40,622 nucleotides of DNA, taken from positions 1 to 40,622 of the IMG/VR virus record IMGVR_UViG_3300044684_000130. The stretch is one strand, 5' to 3'. Source of the DNA: a virus. The notes under the pieces are model-generated. The model did not search any database. It was given only the letters and a program-made list of their open reading frames with translations, and was not told where the DNA came from. Every line of letters starts with the position of its first letter. The stretch's first letter is position 1. This document shows positions 11,435 through 32,398 of the stretch, piece by piece. Made by a program: the position numbers and the translations under genes.

Positions 11435-11472
11435 AGCAATTTCGTCTCGCCTTATAAGAACTTCGTCTCAAT

Positions 11473-11499: not shown

Positions 11500-11546
11500 C
11501 AAATGTGTGCTCTCTGTGAATCTCTTCGTGCGTGCTTCATAGATAT

Positions 11547-11575: not shown

Positions 11576-11600
11576 CAACCTCTCTCTAGCAGAAGACGCA

Positions 11601-12814: not shown

Positions 12815-13338
12815 GAGCTTATTTTTCCAACATTCCTCTGATCTCATATCGTGGTGTCAATCTTCGTGACATCATGTTGAATGCACGCATTGCACGTGAA
12901 GTGCTTGACACAGGAGTGATGTTCTATCCTTACACACTGAAAGATGGTGATACCCCAGAGAGCATTGCGTATGATTACTATGGTTCTGTTGAATACAATT
13001 GGTTGGTGTTTTTCTCCAATCAGATAGTTGATCCGCTGTTTCAATGGTACATGCAGCAGACTGATTTTGATGCCTACATTGAAGCGAACTATGGTTCATT
13101 GACGAATGCCATGAATCAAATTCATCACTACGAAAGCGCGCCGGGTGGGTTGCAATACACAGTGACTTCGTATCAGTACAATCCAACTGGTCTGGATGAG
13201 AATGGGTTGCCTCTCTATCCAGTTGATTGCTACACCTGGGAGACGCAACAGAATGAAGCTAGGCGCGGCATCAAGTTGATCAACAAACAGTACGCTAGTG
13301 CAATTGCTTTGGAGCTTGAGAAGAGATTGGCGCCGTGA
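12811..13338 (+). CDS. 53: Baseplate wedge protein gp53
   Basis: A 175-aa homologue of T4 gp53, which clamps wedges to the hub and to each other. It begins with the typical YFSNIPLISYRG, carries the LysM-like block PYTLKDGDTPESIAYDYYG and the following YNWLVFFSNQIVDPLFQW, and ends with a helical segment. T4 gp53 is 196 aa. The ATG overlaps the previous stop (ATGA) and the TGA overlaps the GTG start of the next gene (GTGA), showing continuous translational coupling through this baseplate run. Confidence 0.9.
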   Translation: MRAYFSNIPLISYRGVNLRDIMLNARIAREVLDTGVMFYPYTLKDGDTPESIAYDYYGSVEYNWLVFFSNQIVDPLFQWYMQQTDFDAYIEANYGSLTNAMNQIHHYESAPGGLQYTVTSYQYNPTGLDENGLPLYPVDCYTWETQQNEARRGIKLINKQYASAIALELEKRLAP

Positions 13339-14624
13339 ATGATCTGATCATCTACAACCAGGGTGGCGTTGACACCTTTCAATATGGCATTGAGATTGTG
13401 AAGCCAGATGGCACGTCACTTGGCATTGGCAAGTTTGTGAGCGAGTTCAATGTCTGGGAGAGCATGTTTGCGAAGGCATTGCAATTTAAGATGGGTTTGG
13501 TAGATGCTGCTGGTCTGGTTGCGAAGTTTGGTGTGCAGACAGGTGATGTGGTGAGCCTGACGCTTGCTCTACATGACAATGATGATGGCAAGATTGTGAC
13601 TGAGTTCGTCATCCTGAGCATTGATGATGGTGAGCGCACAGACAACAGTCAGGGACGCACGTTTGTGATGACTGGCTTGCATTTGTCGGCGCATCTGAAT
13701 GGATTGAAGCCAGTGACCAAGAGCTACACTGGCTCACTTGACCAAATTGTGCAGCAGGTCTGTGCTGACTATTTGAATGTGACTGACTTGGATGCAGAAC
13801 CAGCTAGTGGTACGAGAACGTTGGTTGCTCCAGGTGCAAAGCCATTTGATGTGATTGGATGGTGTTGCAAGCAAGCGCAGAATGCGAGTGGCGATGCAGA
13901 CAGCTTGTATTTCTTCTGGCAGACAGCAGACAGTCATGTGTTCAAGACATTGCGCAAGACGATTGCTGATGCCACTGTCTGGCAATACACAGTTCCTGTT
14001 GATAAGAATCAGGCAGGCGACGGCACTGACATTTGGCGTGTATTGAATTTCAAGCAGCTGAAGCTTGGTCACCAGGCACAAAAGGTGAGTGGTGGACTGT
14101 ATGAAAATGAGCTGCTGCAATTCAATCACCTGAACCGCAACATCAGTGGCAGCAAGAAGAATTACGCTGACCAAGCAAATGCGGTGAGTGTGCTGAGACA
14201 ACAACCATTGGCAGATCTGAGCCAAGTTAGCAACACATGGATCAGTGATCAGACAACCAGCATCCGTGGCTTGGCAGCAGCAATGAAAGTGCGAAGTGAT
14301 GATGCTGCCATTGAACAACAGAACAGCTATCAGAACAAATACAATCAGGCGACGATGCAACAGCAGTTATTCAATCAAATTGCGTTCAGCATTGAGATCT
14401 ATGGCAACCCAGGCATTCGCGCAGGTGACATCATTGAGATTGATGCACCTGAGCTGAGCAGTGTGAGCAACAAGGGCAAAGACTGGGTGCTACATGGTCA
14501 ATTTTTGGTGGCAGATGTGAGACATCGCGTGTGGCATGCTGAGCACTATCGCACTTATTTGACAGTGTATGCTGATGGCTACGACACAAGCGTGATGGCA
14601 AACCCAGGGCAGAACGGAAACTGA
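13335..14624 (+). CDS. 27: gp27-like baseplate central hub protein
   Basis: A 429-aa hub protein, 391 aa in T4. gp27 trimers form the ring onto which gp5 is threaded and which adapts the sixfold tube to the threefold spike. The sequence is beta-rich with the hub features IEIVKPDGTSLGIGKFVSEF, SLTLALHDNDDG with LSIDDGERTD, YTGSLDQIVQQVCADYL and the late GNPGIRAGDIIEI element found in gp27/gpD/VgrG hub domains. The identity follows from these elements and from the direct placement before the gp5 homologue. The GTG start overlaps the gp53 stop. Confidence 0.78.
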   Translation: MNDLIIYNQGGVDTFQYGIEIVKPDGTSLGIGKFVSEFNVWESMFAKALQFKMGLVDAAGLVAKFGVQTGDVVSLTLALHDNDDGKIVTEFVILSIDDGERTDNSQGRTFVMTGLHLSAHLNGLKPVTKSYTGSLDQIVQQVCADYLNVTDLDAEPASGTRTLVAPGAKPFDVIGWCCKQAQNASGDADSLYFFWQTADSHVFKTLRKTIADATVWQYTVPVDKNQAGDGTDIWRVLNFKQLKLGHQAQKVSGGLYENELLQFNHLNRNISGSKKNYADQANAVSVLRQQPLADLSQVSNTWISDQTTSIRGLAAAMKVRSDDAAIEQQNSYQNKYNQATMQQQLFNQIAFSIEIYGNPGIRAGDIIEIDAPELSSVSNKGKDWVLHGQFLVADVRHRVWHAEHYRTYLTVYADGYDTSVMANPGQNGN

Positions 14625-15671: not shown

Positions 15672-16070
15672 GTGGCAGCTAACACAGCAAATCGCCAATA
15701 CATCGATTTCAACACAGCCTTTCTACAGCATCCTGTCAGCAATGACTTGGGACGCATCTATGATGCAGAGGCTGTGAAAACCAGCATTCGTCATCTCATC
15801 CTGACGAACAAATACGAACGCAGGCTAAATCCACAGATCGGCAGCAATGTGCAGAAGATTTTGTTCGAACCCATGGATGGCACAACGACATCTGTGTTGC
15901 AAAACTACATTCGTGAGACTATTCAAAATTATGAACCGCGTGCCATTCTACAAAGCGTGATTGTCACCCCAGACTATGACAATCAGTCCTATCAGATCTC
16001 CATCATCTTCTCAACAGTGTTCACGCAGAACGCGGTGAACCTGTCATTCTATCTCTACAGGGTGCGCTAA
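15672..16070 (+). CDS. 25: Baseplate wedge protein gp25
   Basis: A 132-aa protein, the same length as T4 gp25. gp25 binds gp6 and gp53 in the inner baseplate and starts sheath assembly. The family landmarks are DLGRIYDAEAVKTSIRHLI, the basic NKYERRLNPQIGSNVQ with FEPMD, and the terminal strands. The GTG start has GGAG at 15662-15665. The TAA overlaps the gp6 ATG (TAATG), so the interacting pair is translated together. Confidence 0.93.
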   Translation: MAANTANRQYIDFNTAFLQHPVSNDLGRIYDAEAVKTSIRHLILTNKYERRLNPQIGSNVQKILFEPMDGTTTSVLQNYIRETIQNYEPRAILQSVIVTPDYDNQSYQISIIFSTVFTQNAVNLSFYLYRVR

Positions 16071-17890
16071 TGGCGAACACAAACACTGGCTTTCTGAACG
16101 CCGATCAGCTTGACTTCGTTGCGCTCAAGTCAAATTTCAAGCAATGGTTGAGTCAGCAAGATCAATTCAAGGACTATGATTTTGATGGCAGCAATTTGTC
16201 TGTGCTGTTGGACTTGCTCACATACAACACATACATCAATGCCTTCTATCTGAACATGGTTGGTAGTGAGATGTTCTTGGACACAGCAATTCTGCGACCA
16301 AGTATTGTGAGCCATGCGAAAGAACTCAACTACACGCCACAAAGCATGACATCTGCAATGGCATATGTTGATCTGAAACTGATTGGCAACAATTTGCCAT
16401 CTGTGGTCACCATTCCTGCGAACTTCCAAATTGTCGGCCAAGCAGCAAATGGCCAGAGCTTCACATTCTTGACTTCCGATGCGATCAACATTGGCGCAGC
16501 GAACAACTGGGTTGGAACAGCCATTCCGTTCTACGAAGGCAAAATTGTCACCGAGACATTTGTTGCTAATAGCTCTGTTCGCTACACATTGCAAAGTGCT
16601 AATGTTGATGTGACCAGCATCAAGGTGAATGTGCAGAACTCCAGCTCAGACACAACGAACAGCAATTGGACCAAGGCAGAAACGCTGTTTGGTTATACCG
16701 GAACCAGCAATGTGTTCTTTGTACAGGGTTATCAAGACTATCTGTACGAAGTTACATTTGGATCTGGCGTGGTTGGTGCACCTGTGCCAGATGGTTCTAT
16801 TGTACGCGTCACCTATCGTCAGACAAACGGTCCATTGGCCAATGGTGTGAAGAAGTTTGTGGTGAACACTTCGTTGGCCAACGTGCAGTCCATCACTGCA
16901 ACCATCAGTAACACGAATGTGATGGCATCTGGCGGTTCGTTGGCAGAAAGCAACAGCAGCATCCAGTTCAATGCTCCGAAATACTTCGCAACGCAAGAAC
17001 GCGCTATCACGGAAGAAGACTATCAGACGCTGTTGGAAAACAAGTTCCCACTGTTGCAAGCAGTCACTGCTTATGGCGGAGAGAAGGCAACGCCACCGAT
17101 GTATGGCAAGGTGTTGATCAGCGCGAAACCATTTTCTGGCACTGTGTTGCCAAACACTCTGAAGGAACAGATGGTCACATACTTGCAGAACAAGTGTGGA
17201 CTGACCACAACTCCGATCTATCAAGATCCTGCTTTCTTCTATGTGGGCGTGAACAGCAAAGTCTATTACAATTTGAATGTGACCACGCTAAGCGATTCTG
17301 ATATTGAATCTGCTGTGGCGAATGAAATTGTGAACTGGGGAAACACTGCACTAGCGGGCTTTGGTGGTGACTTGGCGTTCTCCAAATTGTCTGCTGCCAT
17401 TGACTCTTCTGACGAGAGCATTGTGCGCAACGATACTAGCGTGCAGATGATCTACAAGCTCAATCCATTGCTTGGCATCACTTCGTCATACACCTGGAGC
17501 TTTGGTAATCAGATCTATACAGACAGTCCAACCCTTTATGCATATCCTGCTGGGCGCGCGCCTGCAGTCACTTCTGGTGCGTTTGGATACACAAAGGGTG
17601 GCACGTCATACAACAGCTTCATTCAAGATGATGGTCTTGGAAAACTCTATATCTACACTACTGACAACCAAGGCAATAAAGTCATTCTGAACAGCGCAAT
17701 CGGCACAGTTTCATATGCAACTGGTGCGGTTTCTATCAACAATCTCATCGTTGATTCGCTGCCAACTGGTGTATCCACGCTGAATATCTACGCAAGGTTG
17801 ATCACGAACGACATCAGCACCTCCACCAACCAAGTCCTTGTCATCGATCCTCTGGACGTGACGGTTGATGCGATTGGAGTGCGCCTCTAA
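16070..17890 (+). CDS. 6: Baseplate wedge protein gp6
   Basis: A 606-aa homologue of T4 gp6 (660 aa), whose dimers make the continuous inner ring of the baseplate. The N-terminal helix pair LDFVALKSNFKQWLSQQDQF with DFDGSNLSVLLDLLTYNTY and MVGSEMFLDTA is diagnostic of the gp6/J family, followed by SIVSHAKELNYTP and the beta-rich middle. A typical ITEEDYQTLLENKFP occurs about residue 305. The C-terminal part is beta-rich and may bind the neighbouring gp7-position protein. Confidence 0.93.
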   Translation: MANTNTGFLNADQLDFVALKSNFKQWLSQQDQFKDYDFDGSNLSVLLDLLTYNTYINAFYLNMVGSEMFLDTAILRPSIVSHAKELNYTPQSMTSAMAYVDLKLIGNNLPSVVTIPANFQIVGQAANGQSFTFLTSDAINIGAANNWVGTAIPFYEGKIVTETFVANSSVRYTLQSANVDVTSIKVNVQNSSSDTTNSNWTKAETLFGYTGTSNVFFVQGYQDYLYEVTFGSGVVGAPVPDGSIVRVTYRQTNGPLANGVKKFVVNTSLANVQSITATISNTNVMASGGSLAESNSSIQFNAPKYFATQERAITEEDYQTLLENKFPLLQAVTAYGGEKATPPMYGKVLISAKPFSGTVLPNTLKEQMVTYLQNKCGLTTTPIYQDPAFFYVGVNSKVYYNLNVTTLSDSDIESAVANEIVNWGNTALAGFGGDLAFSKLSAAIDSSDESIVRNDTSVQMIYKLNPLLGITSSYTWSFGNQIYTDSPTLYAYPAGRAPAVTSGAFGYTKGGTSYNSFIQDDGLGKLYIYTTDNQGNKVILNSAIGTVSYATGAVSINNLIVDSLPTGVSTLNIYARLITNDISTSTNQVLVIDPLDVTVDAIGVRL

Positions 17891-17907: not shown

Positions 17908-20900
17908 GTGGCTTTCACAAAGCTCATTTCACCATTCGTTGCTTCTCAGTTCCCTTCTCTCTATGAGCAGGAAGGACCACTGTTCATAGCATTCGTGAAG
18001 TTGTACTATCAGTGGCTCGAAGAGCAAGGAAATGTGGTCAATGAGAGCCGATCTCTTATTGATTATCGTGACATTGACACCACGCCTGATGCATTTCTCA
18101 AGTATTTCCAAGACAAGTACATGCAGGGATTGCCAGCGGACATCGTTGGTGATCGACGCAAGCTACAGAAGCACATCAAGGAAATCTACAGCAGCAAGGG
18201 CACCATCGTTGGATTGCAGCTTCTCTTTCAGCTGCTCTATGGCACAGAGGCGTCAGTCTACTATCCTGGTCAAGACATTCTTAAGCCATCAGATGGTGTT
18301 TGGACGCAACCGCAATACGTCGAAGTTTCAGCGAACCCTCTCAACGTTCTGCTGGTGGGAGAGACCATCACTGGACGTGAGTCGGGCGCAACTGCAATTG
18401 TTGAAGACTATTCTTATCGTTATGTAAATCGCCGACAGATCAATGTGTTGTCTGTGTCCAATCTTCATGGCACATTCAAGACAGGGGAGATTTTGCTCAA
18501 TGGTGTGATCACTGATGTGTTGCAAGCGCCACGTGTCGTGGGATCAATGACAAGCATTGATGTCAACGAATCTGGCTTCAACTACAAAGTCGGTGATGTG
18601 CTTCAAGTGCTCGGCGGATCTGGCATCAATGGCGAAGCAGTCGTCAGCAGCGTGCAGCCACGCAACGGCGCAATCATCTTCACCATCGTAAATGGTGGTT
18701 TTGGCTATGCAAACAATGACTCGTTTGCACCAACCACTGTCACTGTAAATCCTGGCATTGGCTACACGGCGAATGTCTATCAGTTTGCTGTTGCAAATGG
18801 CTCACAATCTGAATTTTCTTTGTCGAATGTCAATGGAAATGTGATCTATTCGGCGGTCATCAGCAATGTGTTCGTCAAGGATTGGCAGAGCGATTGGATC
18901 AATCATCCGACTTCTGTCATCTGGGGCATTGATAGCGAGTTCCGTTCAACAATCCCTTCCAGCAGCTGGGCTATCAGCAATACGACACCAGCAAATGGTG
19001 TGCAGAGCAAGGTTGGTCTCACTTGGGGTGATGGCTATTTCAACACTGGTGTTTACATGCCAGCAGATGCATTCACCTATGCATCTAATACTGCTCAGAC
19101 TGACTTGAGCCTTGCCAATTCTGCTGCGTTTCCGCTTTTTGCAAACACTGTCTACACGGTTTCGTTCTTCTACAAGAAGGATGATGGCACACAGCTGTCA
19201 CTTATCCCGTACAATCCTCAAAACTATGTGAAGGATCCTGGGTTCGAGAGCGAAAGTTGGACAGTCAGCAACACCGGTGGTGCAGCAGCCGCAGTCACCT
19301 ATGTGACTGGCGCGAATGCGATCGATGGCAACGTTTCTCTGCAAATTGGCAACAACACCAGCAACACGATTCTTACAATCGTGCAGCCAGCAAACAACAA
19401 CTACACCATGGTCAATGGTCACACGTACCAGATCAAGGTGTCGTACAAGACCAGCGCAGATTTCAATGGTGATGCTGGTTCAATGCTTGCTCTGCGTGCG
19501 AACTTCAGTGATGCAAACATCGCTCCGAACACGGTCGTTGCTTCGCTCCAGTTTGGTCCTTCTACAACCGTCACGACTCTGTCCAACACATGGACGGCAA
19601 ACTCTGTAGCACAGAGTGCGATTGTTGCTATTCAATGTGACAGCACGGATGGCACACTGACGATTGATGATGTCTCACTGGTTGACATCACCAATGTGAA
19701 CATGCAAGACCTGATCATTCGCTTCGGCAACACCGTGGCGAACACAGGAACAAGCACGAAAGTGCCGAACACTCTCAACACCTATCGCTATTCGACCACA
19801 CTCACGACTGGCAACACAACTGTTCTGGAGTTCATCAAGAACATTGATCGCGGTGCACATGATTGGTCGAACGTTGGTTTGACGCTGACGGGTGTCAAGA
19901 TCGACATTGGCAATGTCGATAATCCATATGTCTCTCCATTCGAAAACTTCCCAGTCTCGAACGCGCTGTCGAGCATGGTTCTTCCGCTCACTCGTGGTGT
20001 TGTTCAGTACGATCCAAGCACACGCAAGTTCCTTTCTGCAACAGAGCTTTCGAGCATTTGGGCATATAATGCCAACACAAATGCCAATAACTCAACCATC
20101 ACTACAAGTGGTCTAATTTCTCCAGACAACGTTTCCACCACGCCAATTCTAGTGCATGTTGCGAACGGCACTCTAGTTGGTCAAGGAATTACGGTCACTG
20201 TAAACAACGTTGACCCTACGCAAGAAACGGCAATCAACTTGTGGATGAAGGGCAGCACAGGCGCTGAGAATGTGGTGGTTGGCATCGCAAATGGTGCAAC
20301 CCAGAGCATGACGCTTCCGACAACTTGGAAGCGTGTGCAACAGATTGTTCCTGCTGGCACATTCTCTGGCAACACATTTGTATTTGAAGCCTATGTGAGC
20401 AGCATTCTTGATTCGGCAACCGCTGCGAACAACGTTGGTTTCTATGCTGACATGTTCCAAGTTCAGCAAGGCGCAACTGGCTTCAGCAATGCATATCTGA
20501 ACTACGTCGCTGGCGCAACAAGTCCATTCACTGCGAATGCTGACTATTACACACTCGGTTCTGACAACATCCAACTGGACTACAATCCGGCTGCGAACGC
20601 GATTCTGTACTGGTCTGGTTACACAATTGGCAATCCAGGTGTTGGCGCGACATTCAGCATTGGCGAGCTATCAAATACGCAGATCATCACCACGCCAGTT
20701 GACGTTGTTGGAACATACCAAAATGTCGTGCTTTCAAGCATTGACTATGGATTCCCAGCAGCCGAAAATCTGCCAGTCAACTACACTGCATCCAACACAT
20801 TCTTTGCGAACGGAAACGGAACAAACACCACATTCACCTTGATTGGTGATATGGGAGAACCTCTTGTTGCTGCTTCTGCAAATGTGTCTGCCATCTATGT

Positions 20901-23900
20901 CAATGGTGTTTCGCAAGCGGGTTACACCGTCAATGAATCGACTTCTCAAGTCACACTGATTTCTGCTCCAGCGCTCAACTCTCAGCTGACTTGGAGCGGT
21001 ACATACGCGGCGCTTGGATCCAACTACAACACTCCATTGACTGATGCACTTGATGTTCGCAACATCACTGTTGGTACGATTGAGTCTTTGATTGGCATCA
21101 ACCCTGGTGTTGGCTACAACGGACCTGTACAAGTTTCTGTTGTGAATGATGTCATTGCTGGTCTCAATTTGACTGCTCCTGATGGCACCATCATGGGCGA
21201 AGATGCGAACATTTCTGCTGTGGCATCTGCGGGAAATGGAGCAATTGCAACCGTCAGCATCCTTGATTCTGGTTATGGATATCAACAGGGTGATGTGATT
21301 GAGCTATTCAATGCCAACAATCCATTCACTGCTGGCGGTTCTGTCAACCTTGGCCAAGGCGGAAAAGGTGCGGGTTATTGGAAAGACACACGTTCGTTCC
21401 TTGATTCTGACAAGTACATCCAAGACGATTTCTATTACCAGGATTATAGCTACGAAGTTCAGGTTGAGCTTGCATTCAACCGCTACAGCGACTTGCTCCA
21501 GAAGATCTGGCACCCAGCTGGTACCAAGATGTTCGGCAAGGTCATTATCGGCAATCTGGTAGACAGTCAATCAGAGATCGCAGAGATCAAGTTTAGTTCG
21601 ATCTTCCAGACACAATATCTCACTTCGTACGACACGTTGTTCACCACAACGCGCAACACAACGACAGCCTATCTGTCGATGTATGGCACCACGTACTACA
21701 CAGAGAAGGCAACTCAGACTTCTCAGGCAACACACGCAGATCTTTCGTATCTACCAGAATTGGTCGTCAACGGCACATTCAATGTCGACCTTTCCAACTG
21801 GAGCACGGGCTATGGTTCGGCAACCTGGAGTTCAACACAGGCGATCGAACTGGCTGCGAATACACTCGTTTATCAGCAGATTCAGACAGTTGCTGGCCAG
21901 GAATACTACATCCAGGCAAACACTTCTGGTCCAGTAACGCTGGCTGCATCTCCAAATGCTAATGGTGCAAATGCTTATGTCAGCAACACCATTGCAACTG
22001 GTCTGGTGACTGGAGCGTTTGTTGCTCAAGGTTCGCAGACATACGTGGTCATGTATACCAATGCGAACACAGCAACGAACGTTGATAACGTTTCTGCCAA
22101 GAACCTGCCGCCTTCTAGCCGTACGACTTATTACGCAACTAGCCGTTCGACGTTGACAGTGTTCGATACCAACCAGAGCACCAGTCTTTCTACAACGACT
22201 GTCTACAATACGATTTTCAACACTGCGTTCTTGACCAACATCTTGACCGCATCGACGTTCCAGACAAACTATCTCACAATTCGCAGCACATTTACTGCGT
22301 TCAACACAGCATATGCAACGAGCCGTCAGACAACACTCCAGACGCTCACGGTGTTCAACACGCTGTCTCCGACAAACTTCGCTACGAACACCACATACAT
22401 CACGACATTCGATACATCTACGCAGACTTCTCGAATCACGATCACAACTGGTTCTACAAACTATGCGACAAATCGTCTAACCACGACGACCACAACGACT
22501 GTCTACGATACAGCATATCAGACTGCGATTGCAACCGATACTACGGTTTCAACCAGTGCTCAGACCAGCCGAGCAACAGCTACAACTACAACGACCACAT
22601 ACATCACAACCTATTTGTCGATGTATGCAACGAACAATCTCACGGCAACAACTCGTTCGACGATTGCTCCTACAACATACGAAAGTCTCTGGAACACAGT
22701 TTTCATTTCGACATATGCAACAGCGTTCGGAACAACGATCGTCACGACATTCAACACTCTGACTGTCTTCAATACGACGACTTCGCGTTCGACCATTACC
22801 ACAACGATCAAGCCAACCAACTACCTCACTACGACAACGTTTGGCACGGCAACGACAACTGCATATGCAACAAATCGTGCAACAGATACAACTGTTTCTA
22901 CGATCACGACTTACAACACGACGTTCGATACAGCGTTTGCAACTTCACGCGCGACAGCAACAAGTCAACAGACGCTGACGGTATTCAACACTACTTCGAC
23001 GAAGAACACCACATACGCAACGGTATATCCTTCTTTCTTTGCGACGAGCGCATCAACTTCGCGTTCTACTACAACGGTATTTGATACTTCGGCTTCTACG
23101 CTGACGGTATTCAACACAACCACCGCAAAGGCAACGAATTTCCTGACGACTACAACGTTCTTGACTTCGTATCTGACATACTATGCAACAAATCGTGCAA
23201 CAGATACCAACGTCCAGACTTCGTTGAACACGACGCAGCTGACTTCCGCGTCGACCACGACAACGTTTGCGACGACATATTCGACGTTCTACGCAACAAA
23301 TTTTGCAACCACGACGACATACACCACGACGTACAACACGACGTATTTGTCTGCTCGCACAACGACGTTTATTACAACATTCAACACGACCACCGTATTC
23401 AATACGACGACAGTGTTCAACACGACCACTTCTTGGTTGGTTGCAACAAGTGCTGTTACTTCGCAGGCAACCACGACAGTGTTCAATACGACCACGACGT
23501 TTGTGACCGTTTGGATCACTTCTTCGCGAACACCAACAAGTTCTCACTCGAAGAACACTACGGTTGCAACATCTCGCGCTACTTCAACATCTCGCGCTAC
23601 TAATACTTCTTGGACGACAACTTGGAATACAACATACAGCCAGCTGACCGCTACTTCGGCTTCTACAGCGACCTCCCGCGCAACGGCTACGACAAATAGC
23701 ACGTCACGTTCTACCAACGTTACCGTTGTGCGTGCAACTAGTCAGCTCACTTCTAAGTCTACGACGACTGTGTTCGATACAAGTCAGATCACGACAGGTT
23801 CGACGAGCCGTGCGACCACAACATCGTACATTACCACATTCGTCACAACTTGGGCAACATTTTACGCAACGACAACCACATTTGATACCAGCACAACAAC

Positions 23901-25143
23901 TTCCAAGAACACAACGCTTCAGACGTTGACGTTGTTCAACACGACTTCTGTCAAGGCAACGAATTTCCTGACGACGACTGTCTATCCAACGAACTTTGCA
24001 ACCACAACAACGTTCGTCACAACATACGACACGTCAACTCAGACTTCTGTCATCACGACAGGTGTTACGAGCACCACCAAGTCAACGAACTTCTTGACGA
24101 CCACGGTATTCAACACCACAACGACTTACGACACTGCATTTGCAACAAGTCGTTCAACAACCAACAACACACTCACAGCTTTCGCAACGATCACCACGTT
24201 TGACACTGTGATTGCAACAACCAAACAGACCAGCGCACAAACGCTGACGGTGTTCAACACCACATCAAACATAAACACCACAACGGTGTTCGCAACAGCA
24301 ACAAACTTCTTGACTGCTACATCGCGCAACACCACATATGACACAAGCCAGATCACGACTGTTTCGACGAGCCGTCAGACGGGAAGCATCACCTCCCGCA
24401 ATACCTCGATCATTACCACCTTCAATACTACAACAGTCTATGATACGGGTGGCACAGTCAATCGCTCTACATCTCGTACAACGGCAACGAATAAGATCAC
24501 AACGTACGCAACTGTCTTCAATACAGCATATGCAACAACGACAGTCTATCCAACCATGGTGGCGACTTCCGCAGTCACTACCACGCTGAAGAACACTGCG
24601 TATGACACGATCTTTGCAACGAATAAGCAGACCACCACGGTGTTTGCTTCGTTCTTTGCAACGAGCCAATCGACGATTGGTGTCACTACCACCGTCTTCA
24701 ATACTTTGAAGTCGACCAACTTCTTGACGACAACGACGTATGCAACAACATACGACACTGTCATCCTGACTGAAGCTGCAACGAACACCGTTTATAACAC
24801 TGTGTTCAACACTTATACATACAAGGTCACTTCGATTGTAACGAATCGAAACACTTCGCAGCAGACGCAGAATGCAACAACCACTGTTTATCTGACTGCA
24901 TTTGCTACGAATCGCACGACGACCACCACATTCGACACCAATCAGTTGACTGTGTATGTCGTTGTTCCGACCCTTTATCTGACGTATTTCAACACGCTGA
25001 CATCTGCTCCGACGTCGTACGACACTGGCTACCCAACTACTCGCTCGACCGGAACAACGTACGACACTTCGTACCAGACAGCGCGCGAAACATCACTTGC
25101 AACAGAAACCAACATAGTGCTGGCTGATACTCCAGCGCTCTGA
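17908..25143 (+). CDS. Giant gp7-position baseplate/tail protein with Thr-rich tetrad repeats, 2411 aa
   Basis: The GTG start is preceded by TAGGAA. Residues 1-132 form a domain I recognise from T4-like marine phages, with FPSLYEQEGPLFIAFVKLYY, a basic helix and YYPGQDILKPSDG. Residues 133-440 carry Gly-Tyr beta modules also found in the gp8-like neighbour. Residues about 442-597 and 1282-1405 look like carbohydrate-binding jelly-rolls (DPGFESESW, NGTFNVDLSNW). Residues 1232-1279 and about 1405-2398 consist of four-residue repeats such as YATN, RATD, FNTT and FDTS. Placement between gp6 and gp8 matches T4 gene 7 (1032 aa), but only position links it to gp7. The frame is unbroken. Confidence 0.85.
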   Translation: MAFTKLISPFVASQFPSLYEQEGPLFIAFVKLYYQWLEEQGNVVNESRSLIDYRDIDTTPDAFLKYFQDKYMQGLPADIVGDRRKLQKHIKEIYSSKGTIVGLQLLFQLLYGTEASVYYPGQDILKPSDGVWTQPQYVEVSANPLNVLLVGETITGRESGATAIVEDYSYRYVNRRQINVLSVSNLHGTFKTGEILLNGVITDVLQAPRVVGSMTSIDVNESGFNYKVGDVLQVLGGSGINGEAVVSSVQPRNGAIIFTIVNGGFGYANNDSFAPTTVTVNPGIGYTANVYQFAVANGSQSEFSLSNVNGNVIYSAVISNVFVKDWQSDWINHPTSVIWGIDSEFRSTIPSSSWAISNTTPANGVQSKVGLTWGDGYFNTGVYMPADAFTYASNTAQTDLSLANSAAFPLFANTVYTVSFFYKKDDGTQLSLIPYNPQNYVKDPGFESESWTVSNTGGAAAAVTYVTGANAIDGNVSLQIGNNTSNTILTIVQPANNNYTMVNGHTYQIKVSYKTSADFNGDAGSMLALRANFSDANIAPNTVVASLQFGPSTTVTTLSNTWTANSVAQSAIVAIQCDSTDGTLTIDDVSLVDITNVNMQDLIIRFGNTVANTGTSTKVPNTLNTYRYSTTLTTGNTTVLEFIKNIDRGAHDWSNVGLTLTGVKIDIGNVDNPYVSPFENFPVSNALSSMVLPLTRGVVQYDPSTRKFLSATELSSIWAYNANTNANNSTITTSGLISPDNVSTTPILVHVANGTLVGQGITVTVNNVDPTQETAINLWMKGSTGAENVVVGIANGATQSMTLPTTWKRVQQIVPAGTFSGNTFVFEAYVSSILDSATAANNVGFYADMFQVQQGATGFSNAYLNYVAGATSPFTANADYYTLGSDNIQLDYNPAANAILYWSGYTIGNPGVGATFSIGELSNTQIITTPVDVVGTYQNVVLSSIDYGFPAAENLPVNYTASNTFFANGNGTNTTFTLIGDMGEPLVAASANVSAIYVNGVSQAGYTVNESTSQVTLISAPALNSQLTWSGTYAALGSNYNTPLTDALDVRNITVGTIESLIGINPGVGYNGPVQVSVVNDVIAGLNLTAPDGTIMGEDANISAVASAGNGAIATVSILDSGYGYQQGDVIELFNANNPFTAGGSVNLGQGGKGAGYWKDTRSFLDSDKYIQDDFYYQDYSYEVQVELAFNRYSDLLQKIWHPAGTKMFGKVIIGNLVDSQSEIAEIKFSSIFQTQYLTSYDTLFTTTRNTTTAYLSMYGTTYYTEKATQTSQATHADLSYLPELVVNGTFNVDLSNWSTGYGSATWSSTQAIELAANTLVYQQIQTVAGQEYYIQANTSGPVTLAASPNANGANAYVSNTIATGLVTGAFVAQGSQTYVVMYTNANTATNVDNVSAKNLPPSSRTTYYATSRSTLTVFDTNQSTSLSTTTVYNTIFNTAFLTNILTASTFQTNYLTIRSTFTAFNTAYATSRQTTLQTLTVFNTLSPTNFATNTTYITTFDTSTQTSRITITTGSTNYATNRLTTTTTTTVYDTAYQTAIATDTTVSTSAQTSRATATTTTTTYITTYLSMYATNNLTATTRSTIAPTTYESLWNTVFISTYATAFGTTIVTTFNTLTVFNTTTSRSTITTTIKPTNYLTTTTFGTATTTAYATNRATDTTVSTITTYNTTFDTAFATSRATATSQQTLTVFNTTSTKNTTYATVYPSFFATSASTSRSTTTVFDTSASTLTVFNTTTAKATNFLTTTTFLTSYLTYYATNRATDTNVQTSLNTTQLTSASTTTTFATTYSTFYATNFATTTTYTTTYNTTYLSARTTTFITTFNTTTVFNTTTVFNTTTSWLVATSAVTSQATTTVFNTTTTFVTVWITSSRTPTSSHSKNTTVATSRATSTSRATNTSWTTTWNTTYSQLTATSASTATSRATATTNSTSRSTNVTVVRATSQLTSKSTTTVFDTSQITTGSTSRATTTSYITTFVTTWATFYATTTTFDTSTTTSKNTTLQTLTLFNTTSVKATNFLTTTVYPTNFATTTTFVTTYDTSTQTSVITTGVTSTTKSTNFLTTTVFNTTTTYDTAFATSRSTTNNTLTAFATITTFDTVIATTKQTSAQTLTVFNTTSNINTTTVFATATNFLTATSRNTTYDTSQITTVSTSRQTGSITSRNTSIITTFNTTTVYDTGGTVNRSTSRTTATNKITTYATVFNTAYATTTVYPTMVATSAVTTTLKNTAYDTIFATNKQTTTVFASFFATSQSTIGVTTTVFNTLKSTNFLTTTTYATTYDTVILTEAATNTVYNTVFNTYTYKVTSIVTNRNTSQQTQNATTTVYLTAFATNRTTTTTFDTNQLTVYVVVPTLYLTYFNTLTSAPTSYDTGYPTTRSTGTTYDTSYQTARETSLATETNIVLADTPAL
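21601..21745 (+). repeat. First block of Thr-rich tetrad repeats
   Basis: Encodes about 48 residues of the tetrapeptide pattern (TQYLTSYDTLFT, TRNTTTAYLSMYGTT). It is separated from the main repeat block by a jelly-roll-like insert (21751-22119). Confidence 0.7.
22120..25100 (+). repeat. Main Thr-rich tetrad repeat block (12-nt period)
   Basis: About 990 residues, roughly 250 tandem degenerate 12-nt units. Thr, Ser or an aromatic/Arg occupies alternate positions, giving units such as TAYA, TNRA, FNTT, VFDT, YATN and RATD. Longer strings recur, for example LTVFNTT. Codons vary between copies, so the protein pattern is conserved more than the DNA, though short exact duplications exist (around 23570-23605). 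No Cys is visible in this block. Confidence 0.85.
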
Positions 25144-25155: not shown

Positions 25156-26892
25156 ATGAGCACTAACATTCTCTCCAAATTCAAGCAGAACGAGATTGCT
25201 AACTTCATTGATAGCATCGATTCTCCAGTACGCGCGATTCAAATTTTGTCTGCCGGTTCTGGTTATGCAAATGGAGAGAATGTTTTGTTTGCCGGTCCAG
25301 GTACACAAGCGAGTGCAAAAGTGTTCACAGATCCAAACGGGGCAATCCAGTACATTGCCATCATCAACGGCGGCAATTACGAAATTGCTCCGACACTGAG
25401 TGTTTCAACTGCAGCTGGATATGGTGCTGTTTTACGACCAGTTTTGGACAATGAGAACTTTTATGTGTTTGCCGGTCGTCCATTGCCATACTCACCAAAT
25501 GACAACAATCCAGATCCGAACTACGAAAACGTCTATGATGGTTACAACTTCCAGTTCGATCAGATGTACTTCGGCGTCAAGCTGACCAACACAGACGTCT
25601 CATTCGTTGCACCTCGTCACACCTGGCAGTCTGGTTCTGTGTATTATCAGTATGATGATAAGGACACTAATCTCCCGAACGAAGCATTCTATGTTGTTAC
25701 CAGCGCGAATCTGGTCTTCAAGTGCATCAACAATAATGCGAATGGCACTTCAACCATTGAACCTTCAAACACCCAGAGCACAGGCATGCCTCCGGTTCTT
25801 TCGGATGGCTATCAGTGGAAATACATGTGCACTATCACGGGTGTAGATCAGACCAAGTTCGGCACGAGCCAATTCATCCCAATCATTGAAGATGCAAACG
25901 TTACTGCCAATGCAATTCCTGGCGGAATTTTCAACGTTTTGGTGGAATCTGGTGGTATCAACTATCCATGTTCAGTCGGTCAAGTTCTTGGCGTCAGCGG
26001 AACACAGGTCGTAATTTCTGCTAACACCACACCAATCAACAACTATTATGCCAACAGCACATTGACTGTGTTTGGTGCAGGAAACGAAGTTACAAACTGG
26101 CGTATTGTACAATCCATGCAGGTTGGTGCAAATAACGTTATTGTCCTCGCGAACACCTTCACACCTGATCAGATTTCGGTGGGTTTCAATTATCAAATTG
26201 CGCCAACTCTGAATGTGATCGGAGATGGTTCTAATTTTGAAGGCTACCTAGTGATGAATCAACAGAGCCAATCCATTGTCTCTGTTCAAATTGTCGACCC
26301 CGGTCATGGATACAACATCGCGAATGCGCAAGTCATTTCTGGTTCTAGCTTTGGTACTGGTGCAAATCTTCGACCAATCATTTCTCCACCGGGTGGACAC
26401 GGATCTGACGTACATGGCGAACTTTACTGCCAATATCTCGGTCTATCAGCACAGTTCGCAAATAACTTGGGACTTCCTGACAACGTTACTATCAGAACAG
26501 TTGGTTTGTTGAAAAACCCACAAGTGTATGGTTCTAACAATACACCATACACTAATGAGACGTTCGTTCAGACAGTAGCTCTACAAGTATCAAATACAAC
26601 CGCATCGATGTTTAGCATCGGTGAAGAAATCATCGGCAACGTTTCTCGCGCGCGCGGTGCGGTTGCGCTGTGCAACTCAACAGTTGTTGTGATCACCGGT
26701 TATATCGGTGAATTCTTGACTGGTGAAACGTTGAATGGCCAGACTTCTGGCGTTCAGTTCGTGTTCAACAGCGCCAACACAACACCTGCTGTCAAACTTT
26801 ATTCCGGCGATATTCTCTACCTTCAGAATATCGGCGCAACAGAACGATCGCCAACTTCATCTGAGCAATTGAAAATGATTGTGCGACTTTGA
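25156..26892 (+). CDS. 8: Baseplate wedge protein gp8, enlarged
   Basis: A 578-aa homologue of T4 gp8 (334 aa), an outer wedge component. The gp8 core is at about 95-250: FYVFAGRPLPYSPNDNNPDP, VKLTNTDVSFVAPRHTWQSG, VYYQYDDKD, NEAFYVVTSANLVFKCINNN and DGYQWKYMCTITG. Extra Gly-Tyr beta modules lie before it (ILSAGSGYANGE) and after it (VDPGHGYNIANAQVISG); they resemble modules in the preceding giant protein and account for the greater length. The ATG follows GAAAGG with normal spacing. It lies immediately after the gp7-position gene, as in T4. Confidence 0.88.
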   Translation: MSTNILSKFKQNEIANFIDSIDSPVRAIQILSAGSGYANGENVLFAGPGTQASAKVFTDPNGAIQYIAIINGGNYEIAPTLSVSTAAGYGAVLRPVLDNENFYVFAGRPLPYSPNDNNPDPNYENVYDGYNFQFDQMYFGVKLTNTDVSFVAPRHTWQSGSVYYQYDDKDTNLPNEAFYVVTSANLVFKCINNNANGTSTIEPSNTQSTGMPPVLSDGYQWKYMCTITGVDQTKFGTSQFIPIIEDANVTANAIPGGIFNVLVESGGINYPCSVGQVLGVSGTQVVISANTTPINNYYANSTLTVFGAGNEVTNWRIVQSMQVGANNVIVLANTFTPDQISVGFNYQIAPTLNVIGDGSNFEGYLVMNQQSQSIVSVQIVDPGHGYNIANAQVISGSSFGTGANLRPIISPPGGHGSDVHGELYCQYLGLSAQFANNLGLPDNVTIRTVGLLKNPQVYGSNNTPYTNETFVQTVALQVSNTTASMFSIGEEIIGNVSRARGAVALCNSTVVVITGYIGEFLTGETLNGQTSGVQFVFNSANTTPAVKLYSGDILYLQNIGATERSPTSSEQLKMIVRL

Positions 26893-26953
26893 AGCACTGA
26901 AAACAGGCTATATACAACAATGCAGATAGTTGAAACATTTTTGGAGATCTTCC

Positions 26954-29900
26954 GTGTCGCTTGACATTGCCAACACAGTTCTAGCATCAAGCCCTTATTT
27001 CGACGATTACAATGCGTCGAAGAACTACTACAGAATCCTGTTTCGTCCATCTGTAGCCGTTCAGGCTCGCGAGCTAACACAGCTCCAGACAATGATGCAG
27101 GCTCAGATTGAGCGTTTCGGCGACAACGTCTTTAAAGATGGATCTATTGTTCAGGGTTGCTCAATCGAATATATCACTGATCTTGAATACATTGGCATCG
27201 AGGATCAGTTTACAAATAACTCTTCGTTGGCACAAAATGACCCGCGCCTCATCGGTGCGATTGCAATTGGCCAGACTTCTGGCGCCCAGGCACTCATCGT
27301 AGAAACACAAGCAGGATTCATTCGTCAGAATCCTGGCCGTTTCTTCATTCGTTATACCAGTCCAGGTGCCAACAATCAGCGTACATTCGTCGCAGGCGAA
27401 ACGCTCAACATCTATAACGAAGATACCTCTTATGTTGAAGACGTTGTGCTTAATGTTCCAAACGCTGCGCCGTTTGCTAATTCTCTCGGACTAGCAGTCA
27501 CTGCAGTTAGCACCAGCAATACTGCGAACATTACTGCACGAGCTATCATCGTAGACGTTTCTACAACAAACAACACTATCAAAGTCAACAATATTAAGCG
27601 ACGCTTCAATGTTGGTGATACTGTGTTCTTGCAATCCAACACCAGTACTTCTGCAATTATTGCTAATGTTGGATATGACGTTTCTTCTCTACTCGGCACC
27701 ATTAATACACTGACATCTAACACAGATGGCATTGCAATTGCCAATAGTGATCTGGCTGGTTTTGCATATGGTGCGCACGTTTCTGATGGCATCATCTACC
27801 ACAAAGGTTTCTTCCTTTCGGTAGCAGCTTCTGACATCATCATTAACCCTAACTCGAATGACCCATCAAACTATCTCCTGGGCTTCGAGACGGCAGAGAA
27901 TGTCATCACAGAAACAACTGATTCTTCTCTGTATGACAATGCGCTTGGTTCTCCGAACTACAATGCACCGGGCGCTCATCGCCTACAACTTGTCAGCACG
28001 CTCGTTGCTAAACTGGCGAACACCGTTGCTAACACTGATGTGTTCTTCCCGGTCGTCACGTTCTCAAACACTGGTGTTGCTTACGACCGCACTGATCCAC
28101 AATATGCTGCACTCGGTGATAGCATTGCTCAACGTACTTACGAAGAATCTGGTCATTTCGTTGTCAAGCAGTTTGGTATTTCTTCTGCTCCGGATCACAC
28201 GAACGCTAATGGCGTCGTCTATGAAATCACTCCTGGTCTCGCATATGTCAAAGGTTACAGAAATGAGCTTCTGACAAATTTGCCGGTTAACGGCAGGCGC
28301 GGTACAGACACGACATCGTACACCAATCAAATTGTCACGATGTCATATGGCAACTATGTTGAAGTTCAACAGGTTCGCGGCTATTTTCCGACGGATCATG
28401 CTTCTGTCGTTACTCTGTTCGGCGGTAAGCAGTTGGCAGTGTCCAACAATCTGACGTCTTCATCGAATGCTCAGGGTACTGCAATTGGTACCGCTAACAT
28501 TCGTGAGTTGGTATATGAATCTGGCACCAAGGGCTCTGCGAACGCTGTTTACAAGGCTTATTTGTTCAACATTCAAATGTCAAACAGCAGCTATAGCTTC
28601 TCGAATGTCCAGTCATTGGTCTATGAAGGTTCGAGCGGCAACGCATTCGCAGACGTCATTTCTTCGCCAGCAACTCTTCAAGAAAGTTCCTACGTTCCAA
28701 TGCTGTTCAGCGTTGGTGCTTCTGCTGTCAAGTCTCTGACGGACGCAAACGGAACTTCTGCGTCTCAATACTACTACACTGCAGCCAACACTTCAGCTTC
28801 TATCGATGCTGGCGGTAACATCGTGTTCCGTGTACCATCTGGCGGCGGTATCCTTGGATTCAGTGACGGTTCTGACATCTCAGAACAACACATCGATGTT
28901 GTAACAACGGCTAACCTCACATTCGCAAATGTTGTTGCAAATGCAACGTTGTACGCAAACGGCGTGATCAATGGTTCTGGTCTTGGTGGGCTCGTTCTGC
29001 CAGGTGAAACCATCATCCATGGCGCAAACCTGTATCTGGTCGCATCCACCATTGATGGTAACACGGTTGCTGTTGCAAACACAATCACACTGGTTGCTAA
29101 TACTGGTCAGACGCTTGGTCGTATGCACTATGCTGGTTCTCTGATTTCGTTGTCAGGAACTGGTCGCACACTCACGATAAATGCCAACAACCAAGCTACA
29201 ATCAACCTTGGTGCTGCTCCAAACAACGCTCCAGTAGCAATTGATCTGCGCTTCTACACTTTGCAGAACCAAGCTCTGCAAATTCAGAAGGTGATCAATC
29301 GTGGAACGACTGTCATTATCAAGACAGCCAATACTGGCACTGACGTTGGTCCTTGGAACCTTGGTATCCCAGATGGTCTGCGCCTCGTTGCTGTCTATCC
29401 TGCAACAGGAGCTGTCAACGCTCTGGCAGTAGACACAACTACTAATCTTGCGAACGTGTTCGTCTTCCACAATGGTCAGACGGATAGCTTCTACGATCAT
29501 TGCTCGATTTCGTTGAGCAACATCAATGATGCTAACACTTATTCAAACACTACGTTTGCTGTGGTCATCGATCACTTCACTGCAAATACTGCAGTTGGTA
29601 AGGGATATTTCAGCGTCGATTCTTACCCAATCGATGATAGCGAAGGAATGGACGCGAACGTTTCGATCCACACATACGAAATTCCTGCGTACTATTCGAC
29701 CTCTTCTAGCAAGACGTACAATCTTCGTGACTCTATTGACTTCCGTCCCTACAAGGTCGCAACGGCAAATGTCACTGCTAATTTGTATGCAGCTACGCTG
29801 AGCCCAGTAACGACTAATCTGTTCGACGCCAACACCTCAGCGTACAAACCGTTCCCTGGTGAAAACTTCGAGCTGAATTACACGCACTACATCGGTCGTG

Positions 29901-32398
29901 TAGATACGCTTGCGTTGACGCCGGCAGGAACATTTGTTGTCGTCGAAGGTGTACCTTCGTTGACTCCAGTTCCACCAGCAATCAGTAATGATTCGTTGAC
30001 TATCGCACAGATGGTTGTTCCTCCATTCCCGTCACTGACGGACTTGGAAAAGCAGTATTCTAACACGACTGCTTACAACATCACCATCACAGTGCAGAGT
30101 CACCAGCGTTACAGAATGTCTGACATTGCTGCACTTGATGCACGTATTAGTCAGCTTGAATACTACACCACGCTGAACACCCTACAACTGGCGGCTGCTA
30201 ACACGTCAATTATGAACAGCAGCGGAAATGATCGCTTCAAGAATGGTATCTTTGTTGATCCATTTACCGATCACTCATTCGCTGCAGTTAGCGATCCGCA
30301 TTATCGAATCGCTATCGACGAACAGAATGGTCTAGCACGTCCATTGTTCATGCCTGAATTTTTCGAAATGGAGTTTGATTTCCCGAACTCCGCAGGAGTG
30401 ACCCAAGTCGGCAATCAGATTTTGATGTCGTATGGTGAAACTTCGTTCCTCAATCAGCAATACGCGACCCAGGCACGTTCGTTGTCTGGTGCGCCGCCTT
30501 CTTACAACGGAACGCTCAAGCTCGTTCCTAATGTTTGGTCAGAAATCGAAACGCTGCAAGGACCAGTTACCATCGTGGCTTCTGATGCTCCAGCATCAGC
30601 ACTTTCGTCCATGACGACTGCTCAGCTGTGTGCTCTGTATGGTTGGTGGCGCGTGGATGGCAATACAGTGACCTCGTCCAATACGACAGCAAACAATGCA
30701 ACGGTCACAGTTCGTCAGGCAACAACTTCTTCAGCGAACAGCGCTTCTGCAATCCTGAGCTACATTTCTCCGCGCGAAGTGGCATTCGTTGCTTCTGGTT
30801 TGAAGCCATACACGACCTTCAATCTATACATTGACGATTATGACATGAGTCAATGGTCAGCTCCCGGTAACATTGCCAACACAAGCGCGGTTGATGATCA
30901 GTATGTCACACGTACTGAAATTTGGGGTTCGCAGCTAGAATCTGACTCGCGCGGAACACTTTCTGGAAAGATCTCAATTCCAGCAAATCGTTTCAAAACG
31001 GGTGGTCACACGGTCAAGCTTCTTTCTGAAGAAATCGATGCAACCACCAATGCTCAAGTTTCGACTGCAGCTGCTGTCTTCACTGTCAATGTGACGTACC
31101 AAGAATCTCCTGGTCCGGTCATTGTGATTCCGAAGCCAGCTCCGGCACCAGCACCTGCTCCGGCACCAGCACCTGCGAACACGAACACTGCTCCAGCTCC
31201 AGCTCCAGCTCCAACACCGCCTTCGGCCAAGTTCAATTGGTCTGGTAGCACCTATGTTCAAGCACCTTCTGGTCACACAATTACATTCAGCGATGCTTCT
31301 ACAAAAGGAACAGGAACAATCACTTCCTGGCAGTGGACATTCGGTGATGGTAGCACATACAGCGGTCAGAATCCACCTGCCCACGCGTATGGTGGTATCA
31401 ACGCTGCATCTACCAATCCATACACAGTGACACTGAAGGTCACAGATTCAAATGGTCTGTCATCTTCATACACACAGACCATTACCCTGTACACGTTGGC
31501 GCCGCCGCCGACCTCGACAATCAACGTCATCAACTACTCGAATGGTGTGTTGATTGGTACTGGCGCAATTGGTTCTGGTGGAACAGAAGCAAACATCAAC
31601 ATGGTTGCTTCGGCATCGAATCCAGTTGCAGGCGCTTACTTCAACTGGTCGTACAACGTTATTTCGGGTAACACCATTAACTACACGACCATTCAGGGCA
31701 CTGCGAACAACACGTTCATTCCTCATCTGATTGATACAAACCCAGCAGGACATGCTAACAATTTGTCCTCTACGATCGCAGTTACTTGCCAATACTTGGC
31801 ATCTAACGGCTTCGTGATTGCTTCCACCAGCCAGAACTTCACACTGTGGCTGACAAACAAGCTCGGTCCGGTCAACTATGGTGTTGCTTCGTACGCAGAT
31901 CCTCCGAGAAAATCAGCGATCAACGAATCGGGTGGTTATGGTCGTGGATGCGTTGTTTGTGAGGCATGGCTAAATAATGTCACACGCGCTGCTGAAGTTG
32001 GACCCAAGTTCTTGGCAGACACATGGTCTCCAGGGGAAGATAACATTATGCCATGCGCTCCAACAGAAATTCATGATCCTCGTTTCAATTATTGTGTTCG
32101 TCTTGAAACAGAATCTGGAATTGAATTGACACTTTCTGTTGACACACCATTTAACCTGAAACACGCAACATCTGACCTTGCTCCAGAAACCACAAAATAC
32201 GCTCCTGACATGCTTGGAGAAGAAGTTCTGGTTGATGACGGTGGCGAAATTCGTTGGGAAAAGGTGGTCAACATCTATGACGTTGGAGAAAAGATGGTAG
32301 TTCCGCTTGGTTTTGGTGGTCGCTCATTTGCCGCTGGTGATATTCCAGACCGTCGCATCTTCAGCCACAACATGCTGAAGGCTATTATTGGTCTATAA
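26954..32398 (+). CDS. DUF4815-type structural/adhesion protein with PKD, Ig-like and C-terminal Hint domains, 1814 aa
   Basis: The GTG start at 26954 has GGAG at 26942-26945; longer TTG starts are less likely. Residues 1-500 are DUF4815-like (SSPYFDDYNASKNYYRILFR, VAVQARELTQLQTMM, ITPGLAYVKGYR). A central beta-rich part contains a short coiled coil (DIAALDARISQLEYY). A Pro-Ala linker (about 1393-1423) leads to a PKD domain (about 1424-1516: SWQWTFGDGSTYSG), an Ig-like module (about 1516-1650) and a Hint-like domain from Cys1666. The Hint end SFAAG...RIFSHN resembles intein C-termini, but the usual block-B His is Val here (LSVDTPF). It lies in the T4 gp9/gp10 region, so a baseplate-fibre connector is likely. 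Confidence 0.82.
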   Translation: MSLDIANTVLASSPYFDDYNASKNYYRILFRPSVAVQARELTQLQTMMQAQIERFGDNVFKDGSIVQGCSIEYITDLEYIGIEDQFTNNSSLAQNDPRLIGAIAIGQTSGAQALIVETQAGFIRQNPGRFFIRYTSPGANNQRTFVAGETLNIYNEDTSYVEDVVLNVPNAAPFANSLGLAVTAVSTSNTANITARAIIVDVSTTNNTIKVNNIKRRFNVGDTVFLQSNTSTSAIIANVGYDVSSLLGTINTLTSNTDGIAIANSDLAGFAYGAHVSDGIIYHKGFFLSVAASDIIINPNSNDPSNYLLGFETAENVITETTDSSLYDNALGSPNYNAPGAHRLQLVSTLVAKLANTVANTDVFFPVVTFSNTGVAYDRTDPQYAALGDSIAQRTYEESGHFVVKQFGISSAPDHTNANGVVYEITPGLAYVKGYRNELLTNLPVNGRRGTDTTSYTNQIVTMSYGNYVEVQQVRGYFPTDHASVVTLFGGKQLAVSNNLTSSSNAQGTAIGTANIRELVYESGTKGSANAVYKAYLFNIQMSNSSYSFSNVQSLVYEGSSGNAFADVISSPATLQESSYVPMLFSVGASAVKSLTDANGTSASQYYYTAANTSASIDAGGNIVFRVPSGGGILGFSDGSDISEQHIDVVTTANLTFANVVANATLYANGVINGSGLGGLVLPGETIIHGANLYLVASTIDGNTVAVANTITLVANTGQTLGRMHYAGSLISLSGTGRTLTINANNQATINLGAAPNNAPVAIDLRFYTLQNQALQIQKVINRGTTVIIKTANTGTDVGPWNLGIPDGLRLVAVYPATGAVNALAVDTTTNLANVFVFHNGQTDSFYDHCSISLSNINDANTYSNTTFAVVIDHFTANTAVGKGYFSVDSYPIDDSEGMDANVSIHTYEIPAYYSTSSSKTYNLRDSIDFRPYKVATANVTANLYAATLSPVTTNLFDANTSAYKPFPGENFELNYTHYIGRVDTLALTPAGTFVVVEGVPSLTPVPPAISNDSLTIAQMVVPPFPSLTDLEKQYSNTTAYNITITVQSHQRYRMSDIAALDARISQLEYYTTLNTLQLAAANTSIMNSSGNDRFKNGIFVDPFTDHSFAAVSDPHYRIAIDEQNGLARPLFMPEFFEMEFDFPNSAGVTQVGNQILMSYGETSFLNQQYATQARSLSGAPPSYNGTLKLVPNVWSEIETLQGPVTIVASDAPASALSSMTTAQLCALYGWWRVDGNTVTSSNTTANNATVTVRQATTSSANSASAILSYISPREVAFVASGLKPYTTFNLYIDDYDMSQWSAPGNIANTSAVDDQYVTRTEIWGSQLESDSRGTLSGKISIPANRFKTGGHTVKLLSEEIDATTNAQVSTAAAVFTVNVTYQESPGPVIVIPKPAPAPAPAPAPAPANTNTAPAPAPAPTPPSAKFNWSGSTYVQAPSGHTITFSDASTKGTGTITSWQWTFGDGSTYSGQNPPAHAYGGINAASTNPYTVTLKVTDSNGLSSSYTQTITLYTLAPPPTSTINVINYSNGVLIGTGAIGSGGTEANINMVASASNPVAGAYFNWSYNVISGNTINYTTIQGTANNTFIPHLIDTNPAGHANNLSSTIAVTCQYLASNGFVIASTSQNFTLWLTNKLGPVNYGVASYADPPRKSAINESGGYGRGCVVCEAWLNNVTRAAEVGPKFLADTWSPGEDNIMPCAPTEIHDPRFNYCVRLETESGIELTLSVDTPFNLKHATSDLAPETTKYAPDMLGEEVLVDDGGEIRWEKVVNIYDVGEKMVVPLGFGGRSFAAGDIPDRRIFSHNMLKAIIGL
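31130..31222 (+). repeat. Pro-Ala linker repeat
   Basis: Tandem GCTCCGGCACCA-type units encode PAPAPAPAP stretches between the structural body and the PKD domain of the DUF4815-type protein. It is a likely extended, rigid spacer. Confidence 0.85.
31946..32398 (+). other. Hint (hedgehog/intein-like) domain, copy A
   Basis: The C-terminal ~150 residues of the DUF4815-type protein. The first Cys is in GRGCVVCEAWL, the block-B-like segment is ESGIELTLSVDTPF, LGEEVLVDDG follows, and the closing element is FGGRSFAAG...IFSHN. The His of block B is replaced by Val. The residue after the final Asn is Met, not Cys/Ser/Thr, so full splicing is not expected. It aligns along its length with copy B at 39469-39906. 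Confidence 0.7.

Follow-up and report, generated by a model that had tools for sequence, protein, structure and literature searches.

A putative giant antiparallel β-hairpin fibre in the Thr-rich extension of a gp7-like phage baseplate protein

The stretch of DNA analyzed, referred to here as the window, comprises 40,622 bases of an IMG/VR virus record. A single ORF (17908-25143, plus strand) encodes a protein of 2411 aa, whose N-terminal body matched the profile of the baseplate wedge subunit PHROG 17744 (E 6.9e-166) and, at aa 1165-1209, the Pfam family PF23786 (40.6 bits, against a cut-off of 27). The genes follow the order gp6-like, gp7-like ORF, gp8-like and VrlC-like, which was also found in DLP6 and phiM7. 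With T4 gp7 the protein has in common the N-terminal family match and the gene order gp6-gp7-gp8. These matches identify the first part of the product as a baseplate wedge protein of the T4 gp7 type, with a Thr-rich extension fused behind it (Table 1). The extension was not found when the relatives Caulobacter Cr30, Sinorhizobium phiM7, Ochrobactrum OC and Pseudomonas pf16 were scanned; among the isolates examined, it was present in Stenotrophomonas DLP6 only.

Table 1. Features of the gp7-like ORF and its neighbors, with positions in the window.
Feature	Position	Strand	Basis or remark
gp6-like gene	16070-17890		Position before the gp7-like ORF
T4 gp7-like baseplate wedge body, aa 1-1233, putative fibre carrier	17908..21606	+	PHROG 17744, PF23786, gene order
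Base of arm 1, aa 1234-1275	21607..21732	+	Pairs with aa ~2359-2400
Non-repeat domain inserted in arm 1, aa 1276-1403	21733..22116	+	HMM non-repeat run, 128 aa
Outgoing arm, aa 1404-1872, 469 residues of xΦxT/xT dyads	22117..23523	+	
Putative hairpin tip, aa 1873-1880, SRTPTSSH	23524..23547	+	Mirror centre aa 1877.5
Returning arm, aa 1881-2351, 471 residues	23548..24960	+	Mirror complement of the outgoing arm
Small bulge, aa 2352-2354, in VYVVVPT	24961..24969	+	Opposite the domain inserted in arm 1
Base of arm 2, aa 2355-2405	24970..25122	+	
PHROG 438 baseplate wedge subunit	25156-26892		gp8 position

Elsewhere in the window, an 18-base tandem repeat (GCTCCGGCACCAGCACCT) was observed at 31139-31176, inside the VrlC-like ORF (26930-32398). 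A 1381-aa ORF (35761-39906), with no PHROG match at E<=0.001, sits downstream of a tail-fibre-like gene (34318-35328). Inside the gp7-like body, the segment at 19225-19677 resembles a carbohydrate-binding jelly roll by eye, without profile support.

The Thr-rich repeat begins at aa 1234 (nucleotide 21607), and from aa 1400 on Thr makes up 32-43% of every 100 aa, compared with about 10% before. Over the whole repeat region, about one third of the residues are Thr, with only 21 Gly and 2 His among 1178 residues. The autocorrelation of Thr showed positive peaks at even lags only, chiefly 4, 10, 14, 18, 28 and 32, with values of +0.29 at lag 4 and -0.06 at lag 5. An unsupervised 4-state HMM, fitted to the window together with its relatives, recovered the cycle [T/S/x]-[F/Y/R/K]-[A/N/D/S]-T, in which two-residue shortcuts (xT dyads) were the only common variation and odd steps were almost absent. 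The pattern is one of xΦxT tetrads and xT dyads, with slips of an even number of residues in almost all cases. In an extended strand, Thr and bulky residues would alternate on one face of the chain and small residues would occupy the other. With 1002 residues, the main repeat (aa 1404-2405) makes up about 42% of the protein.

An earlier reading, made from the sequence only, had described a repeat of about 1000 Thr-rich residues with two-residue slips in a baseplate-position protein, unlike collagen, RTX or pentapeptide repeats. The length and Thr content of the main repeat confirmed the first of these claims, the HMM the second, and the PHROG 17744 match together with the place between the gp6-like and gp8-position genes agreed with the third, while the distinction from the three known repeats was borne out by period and composition. 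The repeat had also been called uninterrupted, which it is not: it is broken by a domain of 128 aa, a tip of eight residues in the middle and a bulge of three.

The inserted domain (aa 1276-1403) gave no Pfam match at E<1, and by eye it resembles a jelly roll of the carbohydrate-binding type. In L002, L003, L004 and DLP6, the same place is taken by runs of 127-163 aa without the repeat. The inserted domain and the bulge are equally far from the tip (about 473 residues), and at the best offset the base of arm 1 (aa 1234-1275) agreed in 21 of 21 face-A dyads with the C-terminal stretch read backwards. Since the base of arm 1 pairs in this way with the C-terminal end, the inserted domain can be read as an excursion from arm 1.

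The layout of the repeat, with practically equal arms in the window (469/471 residues), in DLP6 (254 + 254) and in L003 (233 + 233), led to a mirror test of the arms. The bulky/Thr pattern was compared between the arms, arm 2 being reversed, and among all positions the best mirror centre of the window was aa 1877.5 (r 0.88, 234 pairs), which coincides with the non-repeat tip SRTPTSSH. At this centre, Thr stood opposite Thr and bulky opposite bulky. The null consisted of 500 shuffles of the unit order within each arm, whose best Z averaged 5 and never exceeded 7.5; the observed Z was 13.4. The same centre, aa 1877.5, came out of a label-free test that used the raw positions of Thr (Z 12.0), and it also ranked first for complementarity excess. 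At the level of the sequence pattern, these tests showed residue i of the outgoing arm to be matched to residue 3755-i of the returning arm.

The residues that face each other were also not combined at random. In the window, aromatic residues faced Arg/Lys in 29 pairs (5.0 expected) and Arg/Lys faced Arg/Lys in none (1.0 expected), and the strictness was below that of other families, with 12 aromatic-aromatic pairs and 14 Thr/bulky mismatches. Arg/Lys-Arg/Lys pairs were absent from all nine proteins of the label-free test. When 1966 face-A bulky pairs from 24 proteins were pooled, R-R was observed once against 125 expected, F-F 36 times against 221, and F-R 357 + 279 times against 207 + 133, counts that are not independent because some of the proteins are related and all were picked by their high Thr/bulky mirror score. 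The identity of the facing bulky residues played no part in that choice. At the bulky positions, an aromatic residue faces Arg, Lys, Gln or another non-aromatic residue, and the opposite face of the strand bears small residues. A variant of the code was seen in L123 (L123:2454), where aromatic-aromatic facing pairs (93 of 134) replace aromatic-Arg.

Additionally, the window was compared with L002, which is 70% identical to it in the repeat and keeps the tip motif PTSSH. All the length changes between the two were even. From the tip outward, the extra residues of L002 were 2, 4, 2+4 and 12 in arm 1, and 2, 4, 2+4 and 2+10 in arm 2, located at distances from the tip (arm 1/arm 2) of 4/10, 32/28, 50-55/49-53 and 213/218-228 residues. 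Moreover, 17 facing bulky pairs had changed on both sides. Both the period and the mirror symmetry are conserved in homologues. Comparison with L002 gave a dN of 0.28 and a dS of 2.14, the latter near saturation, and the coding sequence is under purifying selection. All four Thr codons are in use. Palindromy at the DNA level was rejected, since no inverted repeats were found in the DNA; furthermore, a DNA inversion cannot produce a reversed protein pattern.

A scan of IMG/VR with a degenerate DNA pattern of the repeat gave at least 120 stretches, and among the matches listed all but three lay in loci with a repeat ORF. An ungapped self-mirror test was applied to 105 distinct repeat proteins, many of them cut by contig ends or from two-gene systems, and 55 scored above their own shuffles. 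The mirror r reached 0.97-1.00 in L057, L033, L123, L118 and L140; symmetry was also detected in DLP6, in L003, L004 and L007 (gapped match 0.99), in L060, L154, L095 and L100, and in L008 with 23 of 23 dyads. L015 was ambiguous, and a possible second hairpin in L006 (aa 1193-2036) scored at the edge of the null. As read from these sequences, the pairing rule holds in dozens of phage proteins. Among the matches listed, the shortest arms of gp7-type proteins had about 45 residues (L008) and the longest about 690-750 (L095). The spacing of the bulky residues was about 5.3-5.5 residues in L033, L060 and L041, compared with about 4.5-4.6 in the window, DLP6 and L007, which possibly reflects a different twist of the ribbon.

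The genes were found in diverse surroundings. In L006 and L007 the putative hairpin is encoded by a separate gene between gp7 and gp8. The carrier locus L060 has an amidase-type gene resembling the one in HMO-2011 and Pelagibacter podoviruses, the L131 carrier loci are related to flavobacterial podoviruses, and L120 belongs to a phage with a tape measure. In a prophage of the SAR92 clade bacterium H921 (L154:211-3177, minus strand), the gene lies beside capsid and collagen-like tail fibre genes, and its product has arms of about 413 and 419 residues around a tip domain of 83 aa. No repeat ORF was found in the stretches examined of Pelagibacter HTVC104P, Maribacter Panino, Flavobacterium elemoA and ctfjg026, which are isolates related to the podovirus-type loci.

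In seven loci (L073, L111, L119, L121, L131, L144 and L147), two repeat genes were found that are antiparallel complements of each other. The antiparallel reading of the two-gene loci was dominated by aromatic-Arg/Lys pairs; the parallel reading gave many cation-cation and aromatic-aromatic pairs. In L108, the pattern score was about equal both ways, and complementary pairs appeared in the antiparallel reading only. Six contigs in which the fetched repeat gene had no or weak self-mirror were examined for a partner gene, and the predicted complementary second gene was found in three of them: L253 (the L098 contig, 1639 + 1635 repeat residues), L254 (L058, 687 + 686) and L255 (L072, 922 + 962). 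In L253 and L255 the parallel and antiparallel readings were similar on pattern, and the antiparallel one yielded far more aromatic-cation pairs. Two other contigs proved to be complete self-hairpins once the whole gene was included (L256, 177 dyads, 0.99; L257, 332 dyads, 1.00), and in the sixth the repeat lay at the contig end (L045). The presence of two separate, complementary repeat proteins in one phage suggests a two-protein zipper.

The tip also differed between phages. A Gly_rich_2 domain is located exactly at the hairpin tip of L006 (aa 526-750 of the ORF 7649-13768), and L055, L067, L120, L125 and L154 share a similar tip domain of 75-85 aa (..GGYxYxRGxLxGxFxFK..RYQxRR), likely a receptor-binding module. 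A fibre that binds receptors would be expected to carry domains of this kind at its tip. The window has only a short loop at this point, in which no receptor-binding domain is evident, and its side domain lies near the base.

The simplest structure that accounts for the equal arms, the i + j pairing, the complementarity and the matched indels is a giant antiparallel hairpin. The Thr-rich extension very probably forms one such β-hairpin, a long thin adsorption fibre fused to gp7. The chain would exit the gp7-like wedge at aa 1234, with the side domain near the base, run out for about 470 residues, turn at SRTPTSSH and come back for about 470 residues. The paired arms, joined edge to edge or packed face to face, would make a long thin fibre of at most about 150-170 nm if fully extended at 3.3 Å per residue, fixed to the baseplate through the gp7-like protein and able to reach or bind the host surface. 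Both arms would gain or lose residues in matching even-numbered blocks, and in other phages they would be two separate proteins that zip together. The topology of the fibre rests on sequence evidence, and from it we infer the three-dimensional form, stoichiometry and function. AlphaFold2 gave no confident model for either a 371-aa family member (7 sequences, pLDDT 30) or the window tip (pLDDT 27), the alignment of the latter holding only 3 sequences, so that the low pLDDT is no evidence of disorder. The sequence-only reading had proposed a continuous beta structure from the alternation of residues, which fits this evidence, and a very long thin fibre, which also fits except in its reach, about half of 1000 extended residues given that the chain goes out and back.

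A trimer of such hairpins was also considered, in which the mirror pairing would be real and a six-stranded antiparallel needle would enclose the small-residue face in a narrow core, with Thr, aromatic residues and Arg outside, in place of a ribbon made by a single chain. Most phage fibres are trimers, and one face of the repeat consists of small residues. At the tip of T4 gp37, six antiparallel strands form such a needle (PMC9659904). However, T4 gp7 is a monomer (PMC3004832), and the stoichiometry would have to differ here; the HxH metal-binding pattern is also absent, with His at 2 of 1178 residues. We regard this arrangement as possible, though rather unlikely.

A monomeric beta-solenoid with short rungs made of tetrads, also raised in the sequence-only reading, would agree with the strong 4-residue period and with the quasi-repeats at 14, 18 and 32 residues. 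It does not require a complementarity at i + j = constant along about 470 residues per arm, which extends over the full length with no fixed rung spacing; the repeat spacing varies among families, and the equal arms, the mirrored indels and the two-protein versions would be left unexplained, which makes a solenoid very improbable. Even less credit can be given to a disordered, mucin-like linker carrying O-glycans: about one third of Thr and a pLDDT of about 30 are what it would lead one to expect, but such a linker has no reason to keep even parity, aromatic-Arg/Lys mirror pairing and compensatory indels, and the low dN relative to dS (0.28 vs 2.14) indicates purifying selection. Finally, a mirror that is an artefact of periodic low-complexity sequence, palindromic at many centres, was rejected as next to impossible, since, although the repeat is quasi-periodic and shuffles alone reach a mean best Z of 5, the observed Z far exceeds their maximum, the best centre coincides with the tip, which is not part of the repeat, the antiparallel reading shows avoidance of Arg-Arg and pairing of aromatic residues with Arg where the parallel one gives many cation-cation and aromatic-aromatic pairs, and the indels are mirrored between the arms.

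The hairpin fibres probably represent a previously undescribed class of phage fibre, defined by a code of Thr opposite Thr and aromatic opposite Arg/Lys with Arg-Arg avoided, by antiparallel strands of tens to more than 1600 residues, arranged as a hairpin in cis or as two proteins in trans, by exchangeable tip domains and by matched even insertions. If this is true, they would be a protein counterpart of strand complementarity, in which partners are recognisable from sequence over hundreds of residues and partner strands, in one chain or two, change length together. In that case, a large group of Thr-rich phage proteins that now lack annotation would also be accounted for, many uncultivated phages would gain candidates for their adsorption fibres and tip domains, and long protein rods of chosen length could be designed by a simple rule. 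The hairpin directly predicts crosslinks between named residues, as well as partner genes.

The window repeat had no Pfam hit at E<=1, no PHROG family and no hit among PDB sequences at E<=1, and no earlier description was found in the open-access literature, though one may exist elsewhere. The scores of some phage members against the NCBIfam model NF033849 (serine-rich protein) stayed far below its cut-off, and no true member was found across 291 genomes of one class, so we propose no link to it. Tentaclins were rejected for their C-type lectin and Ig domains. Pentapeptide, RTX, collagen and Thr-x-Thr antifreeze repeats are likewise short and some are Thr-rich, but the period of the window repeat is even and near 4, and its Gly is scarce. 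Solenoid, collagen, RTX and pentapeptide readings were rejected on period and pairing, the pentapeptide solenoid by the autocorrelation at lags 5 and 4, and collagen and RTX (Gly every third position, GGxGxD) by the Gly content.

The nearest precedent in principle is the tip of T4 gp37, where long antiparallel strands run out and back with the working end at the turn, as they would in the putative hairpin; it has no detectable homology and its histidine-iron core is missing from the window repeat, which is therefore not counted as a member. The receptor-binding elements of gp37 lie in its last 215 residues only (PMC9659904), and its tip is a trimer with iron-binding histidines (PMC6957217), a core that the window repeat, with its two His, lacks. 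The gp37 tip has no Thr tetrads, and a mirror pairing code over hundreds of residues has not been reported for it. The Gly_rich_2 domain exactly at the hairpin tip of L006 recalls the polyglycine-rich tail-fibre adhesin of phage S16, which is reportedly a separate protein (Dunne et al. 2018, as cited in PMC6957217); the window, by contrast, has a short tip loop only. In its attachment and reach, the putative fibre would resemble the long tail fibre of T4 (gp34-gp37 with gp9), also attached at gp7. In T4, gp7 occurs as a monomer, one domain of which binds gp9, the protein that attaches the long tail fibres, and these fibres are about 1440 Å long (PMC3004832). T4 builds this structure from several fibre proteins and the adaptor gp9, whereas in the phage of the window the fibre would be covalently part of gp7.
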